Shown: in pieces, positions 28,954 to 32,009 of the stretch
How the letters are laid out: each line of letters opens with the position of its first letter
Numbering within the stretch: position 1 is the stretch's first letter
Assembly (NCBI RefSeq): GCF_000760695.4
Contig: NZ_JHEG04000002.1
Span: 390,740 to 454,739, forward strand
Reading direction: 5' to 3'
DNA: 64,000 nt
From: Tolypothrix bouteillei VB521301
GTDB taxonomy: Bacteria; Cyanobacteriota; Cyanobacteriia; Cyanobacteriales; Nostocaceae
The notes under the pieces: generated by a model
The model's input: only the letters and a program-made list of their open reading frames with translations
Database searches by the model: none
What the model was told of the DNA's origin: nothing
Made by a program: the position numbers and the translations under genes

Positions 28954-29748
28954 ATGCAAATCCTTTCTATATCTGACCAAGTTATTCATCACATACCGTT
29001 TATTACCCACTCGCCTAACGGGGTTGGCGTGGTTAATAAAGCGCTACCTGTTTTATTAGCTCATGTTGACTCACTACCGGATGGGTTGGAGGCGATTGTT
29101 GCAACGAGCGATTTGCAAGGTATCGATCGAGAAAACCAACGCCTTCTTGGTCATCTTGTCAGTGAAGAATTAGATAAGTTGGCTGATTTGGGAAGAATTC
29201 CTTCACTAAAATCAACAGGTATCATCTTGGCGGGAGATTTTTACGCAAAGGTAGATAAGCGTGGTGGTGTAGGTGATGTACGTGATGTGTGGCAAGCATT
29301 TCGCCAGCGTTTTCGCTGGACGGCTGGGGTAGGGGGCAATCACGATAGTTTTGGTAGAACACAACAGGAATTTAGAGCCTTTCAGGACGCAAAAGGTATA
29401 AATTATTTAGATGGTAATATCACCTGTCTTGATGGATTGCGTATTGCTGGGATTTCTGGTATTATCGGCAAATCAACTAAGCCTTTTCGTCGTTCAGAAA
29501 AAGATTTTAGAAAACTGCTCGTACAACTCCTCGATCGCTCGCCGGATATTTTTGTACTGCATGAAGGTCCTAACGACGTGGAAGCTAAGTTAATGGGCAA
29601 TGAATCTATACGTGCTGAACTGGTTAAGGGAAATGATTTGTTAGTGATTTGCGGTCATTCTCATTGGAAAGTGCCTATGATTGCTTTGTCTAAAGGAATT
29701 CAAGTGTTGAATGTGGATACTCGGGTTGTTGTTATGGTAGCAGAGTGA
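28954..29748 (+). CDS. Calcineurin-like metallophosphoesterase
   Basis: A 264-residue cytosolic metal-dependent phosphoesterase. Metal-ligand motifs are ILAGDFYAK, GVGGNHDSFG (the GNHD box), LHEGPND and VICGHSHW (GHxH). The usual first GDxH box is not obvious near the N-terminus, where TSDLQG appears in its place. The substrate cannot be told. Its last 49 bp overlap, on the opposite strand, the end of the small secreted peptide gene at 29700-29897. Confidence 0.85.
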   Translation: MQILSISDQVIHHIPFITHSPNGVGVVNKALPVLLAHVDSLPDGLEAIVATSDLQGIDRENQRLLGHLVSEELDKLADLGRIPSLKSTGIILAGDFYAKVDKRGGVGDVRDVWQAFRQRFRWTAGVGGNHDSFGRTQQEFRAFQDAKGINYLDGNITCLDGLRIAGISGIIGKSTKPFRRSEKDFRKLLVQLLDRSPDIFVLHEGPNDVEAKLMGNESIRAELVKGNDLLVICGHSHWKVPMIALSKGIQVLNVDTRVVVMVAE

Positions 29749-29897
29749 GCGATAGCTAACTCTTGGTGCTGTTGTTGGGCGCGTCTTCCCTTTCCACGAT
29801 ATGTTGCTCCGGATGAATCCTCGCTCGATTCTGCAACAGCGCAAAGAGGGCTCACAGCTAGTACTGCTGTGAGTGCAATTGTCAGGTAAAATTTCAT
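29700..29897 (-). CDS. Small secreted peptide, candidate PatX-like (RGKGR motif)
   Basis: A 65-residue open frame. Residues 1-22 look like a Sec signal peptide (hydrophobic core, then CAVA before Glu23). The mature part contains YRGKGRR at 33-39. PatX proteins of multicellular cyanobacteria are short exported precursors with an RG(S/T)GR pentapeptide that, after export and processing, inhibits HetR in heterocyst patterning. Size, signal peptide and motif place agree, but the central residue is Lys, not Ser or Thr. No strong ribosome binding site is seen. The 3' end overlaps the metallophosphoesterase gene. It could be a variant PatX, an unrelated secreted peptide, or a chance frame. Confidence 0.55.
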   Translation of the reverse strand: MKFYLTIALTAVLAVSPLCAVAESSEDSSGATYRGKGRRAQQQHQELAIAHSATITTTRVSTFNT

Positions 29898-30019
29898 GGG
29901 TTAATTCACAGTGCAATAAATAAGCTAGGAGACAAACACCACGGTTGTGCAGTCCGTGACGATCTCTCTTGGCTACTTATTTATTCAGTGATTTTTTTCT
30001 CTATCTGGTAATTTTTAAT

Positions 30020-30421
30020 TTACGCAATGACTGCTATGCACTCCATTTCCACTCGTGCATCTAAAATCAGTTTGCTAGCCTCAAAGGCGGTTCTTGCAGG
30101 AAGTCGGTCTTTAGAAAAGTAGGTGAGGTAAACTTCATTCACTGCGTTCCATTCTTTTATATCTGCAAGTATCACTGTTACTTTAACGACTTGGTTGAGA
30201 GATGACCCATATCTTTCAAGAACGCGTTTGATATTTTCCATAGTTTGCTTTGTTTCGGCTGTGACTCCTCCAGGAACCAGTTCTTTCGCACCGGGGATGT
30301 TACCAATAACCCCAGATAGATAAAGCATATTACCAACACGTACCGCTTCAGGAAACGGAAGATTGAGAGATTCTGTCTCTGTAGAAGCTAGATAATGGAT
30401 AGAATCGGAAAGAGATGTCAT
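30020..30421 (-). CDS. RidA-family (YjgF/YER057c/UK114) deaminase
   Basis: A 133-residue RidA-fold protein; members hydrolyse reactive enamine/imine intermediates made by PLP enzymes. Expected features include the N-terminal SLNLPFPEAVRVGNMLYLSGVIGNIPG and the middle MENIKRVLERYGSSLNQVVKVTVILADI. The terminal RTAFEASKLILDARVEMECIAVI has the substrate-carboxylate Arg and the Glu near the end. The family is broad, and this sequence need not be the archetypal RidA. It stands alone between a peptide gene and the HMA2 gene. Confidence 0.9.
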   Translation of the reverse strand: MTSLSDSIHYLASTETESLNLPFPEAVRVGNMLYLSGVIGNIPGAKELVPGGVTAETKQTMENIKRVLERYGSSLNQVVKVTVILADIKEWNAVNEVYLTYFSKDRLPARTAFEASKLILDARVEMECIAVIA

Positions 30422-31269: not shown

Positions 31270-31619
31270 TTATGACAAAGTTAATGAAGGTGGGTCATAA
31301 GTTAAATATAATTCACCTTGCAAATGGGGGGATCGATCTTTAGACTGAGTATTTTTAACTATGCATGCAATGCTTTTTGTCCTGGTAATTGGAACTCGAG
31401 AGGCGTCGATCGCAGACACCTCAAATAAAAAGCCTTTCACACCACTGATAAAAAAAATGTAAAAAATCTTGCTTAAATTTTGGCAATAGATCTCTAAGTA
31501 TGTTAGGCTTGGCTCATCTTTTGCACAATGAAAGCTTTATTGCTTTTTCTAAATTACCGGAAAGCTTGCCCTATATGCTGTTGCTATGTAAGGCAAGCAT
31601 CGTTATGGGAGATGAAATT

Positions 31620-32009
31620 ATGAAATGTCCGCTACCAGCCTTACTTGCGCTCGTAAGTGCGATCGCTATAGCTTATCCAGCCCATGCTAATGAAGAAAAT
31701 GTTTCGACCCAGACAACACCAGGTCAAGCTTCTCTTCTGATTGTCAAACCAGCCACTATAGAAAATCAGATAGGTAATACGCGAATTAACAATCGAAGAC
31801 CATCTTCTACCTCCATCAAGCTAGTACGTGAGAAAAAATGTAAAGATATCGATCCCCTAGACTTTCTAAAAGATCCCGCAGCTAATCTCAAGCTCTGTTC
31901 TAAACTAAAACAGCCGCAAGAGGAAGAATCTAAACCTGTTGAAGCAGCTAATTACTATAAAGTACCTCCCCTTGAATCCGGTATTCGCGTACCAGTTTCC
32001 AAGTTTTAA
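31620..32009 (+). CDS. Exported protein of unknown function
   Basis: A 129-residue protein with a clear Sec signal peptide (MKCPLPALLALVSAIAIAYPAHA, cleavage after about residue 23). The mature part is polar, has two or three scattered Cys that might form a disulfide, and ends with a Pro-rich segment. I know no domain in it. The ATG at 31620 is chosen because GGGAGA lies about 8 bp upstream and the signal peptide begins there; the open frame from 31500 adds 40 residues that spoil the signal peptide. No operon partner is seen. Confidence 0.7.
   Translation: MKCPLPALLALVSAIAIAYPAHANEENVSTQTTPGQASLLIVKPATIENQIGNTRINNRRPSSTSIKLVREKKCKDIDPLDFLKDPAANLKLCSKLKQPQEEESKPVEAANYYKVPPLESGIRVPVSKF

Follow-up and report, generated by a model that had tools for sequence, protein, structure and literature searches.

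The DNA analysed here (the window) is a 64-kb stretch at the end of a 454,739-base contig, in a genome of 9.95 Mb. A calcineurin-like phosphoesterase gene (PF00149) occupies 28954..29748 on the plus strand, and a RidA-family gene (PF01042) lies at 30020..30421 on the minus strand. A small protein frame (29700..29897, minus strand) is convergent with the former and has the latter upstream on its own strand. Translation of this interval gave 65 residues and a stop, with the pentapeptide RGKGR encoded at 29784-29798, reproducing the frame and motif of the preliminary description. The core with one further arginine, RGKGRR (residues 34–39, 29781..29798), is RGQGRR in both full-length relatives described below. 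The overlap with the phosphoesterase tail, also reported previously, comprises 49 bases (29700..29748) that encode residues 50–65 and the stop; conservation here is not independent evidence for the frame.

A strong hairpin (29915..29985, with arms at 29915-29924 and 29976-29985) separates the RidA gene from the frame. Its fold z was −3.54 on the plus strand, beating 200 of 200 shuffles, and −2.96 on the minus strand, beating 197 of 200. Seven T follow on the plus strand (29992-29998), and the hairpin was not among the hits of the terminator scan. It is possibly the terminator of the phosphoesterase transcript, in which case the 65-residue frame would be antisense to it over its entire length. 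Were the RidA transcript to end there as well, the frame would need its own promoter; no sigma-70-like promoter was recognised in the stretch that separates it from the RidA gene. The Rfam search gave no match in 29600-30100. Elsewhere in the window, a further small frame (31581-32009, plus strand) carries a signal-like segment when read from an internal Met (MKCPLPALLALVSAIAIAYPAHA); no function is assigned to it here.

Predicted signal peptide and coding character

Judged by simple rules, the N-terminus of the frame is built like a Sec signal, with Lys 2, a hydrophobic stretch free of charges, and an Ala-x-Ala before residue 23. From hydropathy and the Ala-x-Ala rule, a signal peptide is predicted at residues 1–22 (29832..29897, minus strand), with the cut between AVA and ES. 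The crude signal rule was passed by eight frames of 40–150 residues in the window, so the signal feature alone is weak. In the frame and its two relatives, 15 of the 22 residues are invariant, including A20 and A22 before the predicted cut. The plausible Sec signal peptide proposed earlier is thus in keeping with the simple rules, and its pattern is kept in both relatives.

Of 185 spurious frames, 7.0% reached a codon score at least as high as that of the candidate; the proportion was 7.9% for 76 intergenic frames and 81% for 211 gene pieces. The codon usage therefore fits coding and is nearer to that of genes than to that of spurious frames, without being decisive. Synonymous choice alone is weakly informative (23.8% of the spurious frames, 19.7% of the intergenic frames, and 82.9% of the gene pieces scored at least as high). 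When the 43 mature residues were shuffled 500,000 times, RGxGR arose in 0.096% of cases and [YH]RGxGR[RK] in 0.0006%, both figures being post hoc. It is conservation in two other proteins, in the part that does not overlap the phosphoesterase gene, that raises the frame above chance.

Relatives and distribution of the frame

The protein search returned three distinct proteins: the frame itself, P0002 (63 residues, source JGI), and P0003 (71 residues, Scytonema sp. NUACC26, locus NUACC26_082230). From this named relative, the host of the window is taken to be a Scytonema-type cyanobacterium. Both relatives align over the full length of the frame (E 5.6e-17 and 1.3e-16) and are listed as hypothetical proteins, so the expectation that such a gene is easily missed by annotation does not apply to them. 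A profile search of the same collection, which holds 5.8 billion proteins, reached no members beyond these three. Their alignment has the start MKFYLT-ALT--L---PLCA-A-SS, the middle RGxGRR, and the end TITTTRVSTFNT. The three differ in length by whole residues, in line with a coding frame.

Within residues 1–49, outside the phosphoesterase overlap, the frame is identical to the two relatives at 30/47 and 36/48 positions, and the relatives to each other at 37/47. The preliminary description had raised the prospect that conservation might come merely through the phosphoesterase gene; these identities show the frame to be conserved outside the overlap. The last 16 residues, in the overlap stretch, are identical to the relatives at 14–15 of 16 positions. 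Thirteen of the 27 residues at 23–49 are invariant across the three members. The third residue of the core is K, Q, and Q, and the residue before it Y, H, and S. All five fixed positions of RGxGRR are invariant, compared with 8 of the 21 other mature positions outside the overlap, an enrichment with a post hoc hypergeometric p of 0.016 from only three sequences.

The frame is absent from the same locus (L012, 1547-2610) of G001, the only congener compared. There the phosphoesterase and RidA genes stand about 1.06 kb apart, as against about 0.27 kb in the window; the locus is rearranged in one of the two genomes. G001 keeps nearly the same antisense residues as the end of the frame, without the rest of it, and conservation of the TITTTRVSTFNT end therefore proves nothing by itself.

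No homologue was found in a set of 100 relatives; 30 of them gave matches within the E limit of 10, the best non-self one at 0.018. The same was true by sequence in 388 genomes of the order, where 10, the frame's own genome included, matched at E up to 0.05 (best non-self 0.0054), and by profile, where 167 of the 388 matched at E up to 1. The best non-self profile match (E 0.002) was an open frame with an internal stop and no likeness to the candidate. With no convincing relative in the 388 genomes beyond its own, the frame does not co-occur with hetR across filamentous cyanobacteria. When the DNA of 29740-30025 was searched against 217 genomes of the family, with three candidates scored per genome, all matched at E up to 10, and the best non-self match covered 22 bp (E 0.001). 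Plasmids gave no homologue, only matches at E 4–10, and phages and viral contigs gave none. The genome-contig search found four relatives of the phosphoesterase, with no comparable frame among the downstream frames listed; one such locus (L154) has a minus-strand RGLGR frame without a signal-like start.

A hidden family of YRGKGRR peptides was also considered and rejected: the DNA pattern occurred at 10 places in 9 of the 217 family genomes, as against 15 for the reversed control. Five of the 10 places spell the peptide in frame, and a signal-like start was seen only in the candidate frame. The wider pattern [YH]RGxGRR gave seven occurrences in the frame's own genome (control, seven) and six in G001 (control, seven). 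On inspection of these 13 frames by eye, signal-like starts were present only in two PatX frames and the candidate. In the literature library searched, no publication was found that pairs RGKGR with cyanobacteria or RGQGR with heterocysts.

Comparison with PatX, PatS, and PtrA

PMC7761841 gives RG(S/T)GR as the motif in common, and PMC12756182 shows that PatX requires export and is processed by PatP, and that HRGTGR binds HetR at 88 nM. The genome carrying the window has a canonical PatX of 74 residues, located by its RGSGR codons (MRAAVSLL... YRGSGRR). It scored 45.1 bits against the NCBIfam model for heterocyst-inhibiting protein PatX (NF047413, cut-off 30 bits) and 44.2 bits in the own-genome search, and TCCGGA lies 63 bp upstream of its start. 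As a reference, 71 PatX loci were assembled from this locus, the best 30, and 40 chosen among the matches listed for spread over genera; 65 were parsed by rule and six read from the same output. The core was RGSGR in 68 and RGTGR in three, and TCCGGA was found 62–66 bp upstream in 64 of the 65 scored.

The frame shares with PatX its small size (65 residues, against 74 in the genome's own PatX), a hydrophobic signal-like N-terminus of the exported type by simple rules, and an RGxGR core followed by R; YRGKGRR equals the YRGSGRR of the genome's own PatX at six of seven residues. In a profile comparison the alignment extended over only 12 columns, those around the motif, with a pairwise E of 1.1e-4 and a probability of 56%, a result that is partly circular because the motif had led to the comparison. 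None of the three members matched NF047413 at E up to 10, and none of the seven matches of that model in the own genome at the same limit fell on the frame. The MRAAISLL-type N-terminus of PatX is not present. The DIF1 motif TCCGGA was not found within 150 bp upstream, allowing up to one mismatch; one TCCGGA, at 29808, sits inside the frame, and the window total of five is ordinary against 7.7 expected. In heterocyst formers an NtcA-type site lies upstream of PatX, and no GTA-N8-TAC site was found within the same distance upstream of the frame at up to one mismatch. The third residue of the core is S or T in PatX and K or Q in the frame and its relatives. The frame is lineage-restricted and missing in the congener, whereas PatX exceeds the model cut-off in 209 of the 217 family genomes.

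PatX membership of the frame was accordingly rejected on five tested features (core, model, DIF1, NtcA-type site, and hetR co-occurrence). Of the PatX-like peptide with a variant signal envisaged in the preliminary description, the compact exported-type frame with RGxGR stands; the PatX identity is not supported, in view of the model, TCCGGA, the N-terminus, and the canonical PatX elsewhere. Nor did lysine at the third position find a precedent as a variant PatX signal, since K or Q occurred in none of the 71 loci, a sample collected with the PatX model and thus biased to the canonical form, in which strongly deviating forms could be missed. As the resemblance is limited to the short core, the frame is set apart from PatX; its motif is similar to the signal by which PatX spaces nitrogen-fixing cells, without being that signal.

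The RGxGR pentapeptide is likewise a feature of PatS and HetN, other RGSGR regulators of HetR. PatS, a peptide of 13–17 residues with an RGSGR end according to PMC7476756, differs from the frame, which has 65 residues, a signal-like N-terminus, and an internal RGKGR. The N-terminal domain of PtrA (NF041599) weakly matched residues 1–25, the signal region (E 0.059), but at 13.3 bits against a cut-off of 31 the frame is not a member. Three short frames elsewhere in the window's genome contain DERGSGR, which we take to be the end of the PatS peptide, followed by further residues: L047 (G000:C1:1783970-1784780), L064 (G000:C1:6895190-6896010), and L067 (G000:C1:7996110-7996930). They are possibly PatS-like or decayed copies.

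Possible roles of the RG[K/Q]GRR core

Full-length relatives, a kept signal pattern, and the core together point to a small protein that is confined to one lineage and has a predicted Sec signal. We hold with high but not full confidence that the frame is coding, and we think it rather probable that it is a genuine gene restricted to Scytonema-type cyanobacteria, encoding a small Sec-exported protein that has a conserved RG[K/Q]GRR core and is not PatX. Cleavage of the signal peptide would follow Ala22, and the 43 residues that remain, rich in Gln and Thr, would lie outside the cytosol. Being the best-kept part of the mature peptide, RG[K/Q]GRR is probably its working part, perhaps a segment that is bound or processed. 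Counted against this explanation are the small number of distinct sequences (three), the absence at the congener locus, the limited information in synonymous codon choice, the lack of a promoter match together with the strong hairpin on the RidA side, and the closeness of the core to the genome's own PatX heptapeptide, which favours a link with HetR.

Such a link would take the form of an exported precursor trimmed to a hexapeptide (YRGKGR, HRGQGR, or SRGQGR) that occupies the hood cleft of HetR, whether as a weaker antagonist, an RGSGR competitor, or a decoy. Besides the predicted signal peptide with RGxGRR, the six-of-seven agreement, the partly circular profile alignment, and the invariance of the core in three members, this reading is favoured by the single HetR of the genome, which has R223, E253, E254, D256, D270, and D278, the peptide contacts given in PMC4649674. 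According to that paper, the two peptide arginines bind Glu253, Asp270', and Asp278', the peptide Ser bonds to Glu253, and the residue before RGSGR is free. By analogy, Lys or Gln at the third position might replace the Ser–Glu253 bond, as either could also bond at Glu253, or might clash. Against it stand the lack of K or Q at that position in the model-biased PatX sample, the lack of a DIF1 or NtcA-type site upstream, a distribution that is not coextensive with HetR, and the canonical PatX already in the genome. We regard PatX-like action as rather unlikely, and a HetR-directed role of any kind as similarly doubtful; if the peptide has a target, it is probably not HetR in the manner of PatX.

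Alternatively, the frame might never be translated, and the conserved DNA might belong to the transcript of the convergent phosphoesterase gene as a 3' untranslated or antisense part. The frame in its entirety falls between the phosphoesterase stop and the hairpin with its seven T on the plus strand, 16 of its 65 residues are antisense to the gene, and no promoter was matched. Amino-acid conservation, whole-residue gaps, and the kept signal-peptide pattern over codons 1–49, together with the codon score, argue otherwise and make this reading improbable. If the open frame had arisen by chance and its relatives matched chiefly via the phosphoesterase tail, this would account for the near-identity of the last 16 residues and for the congener keeping just the tail; the identities over residues 1–49 largely refute this reading, and we give it very little credence.

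One further proposal, speculative and in our view unlikely, is that Scytonema-type filaments have another exported precursor, with no kinship to PatX along the remainder of its length, whose RG[K/Q]GR(R) peptide reaches HetR and there plays competitor, decoy, or weaker antagonist to the RGSGR signal. If true, the master regulator of heterocysts would have a ligand that had evolved independently or been re-tooled. Should the core act on HetR, the rule of a Ser or Thr third residue would fall, and some filaments would operate with two ligands, whose competition could adjust the spacing of heterocysts. Otherwise, the frame would still represent a small, conserved peptide for export, from a lineage whose genes of this kind are poorly catalogued.
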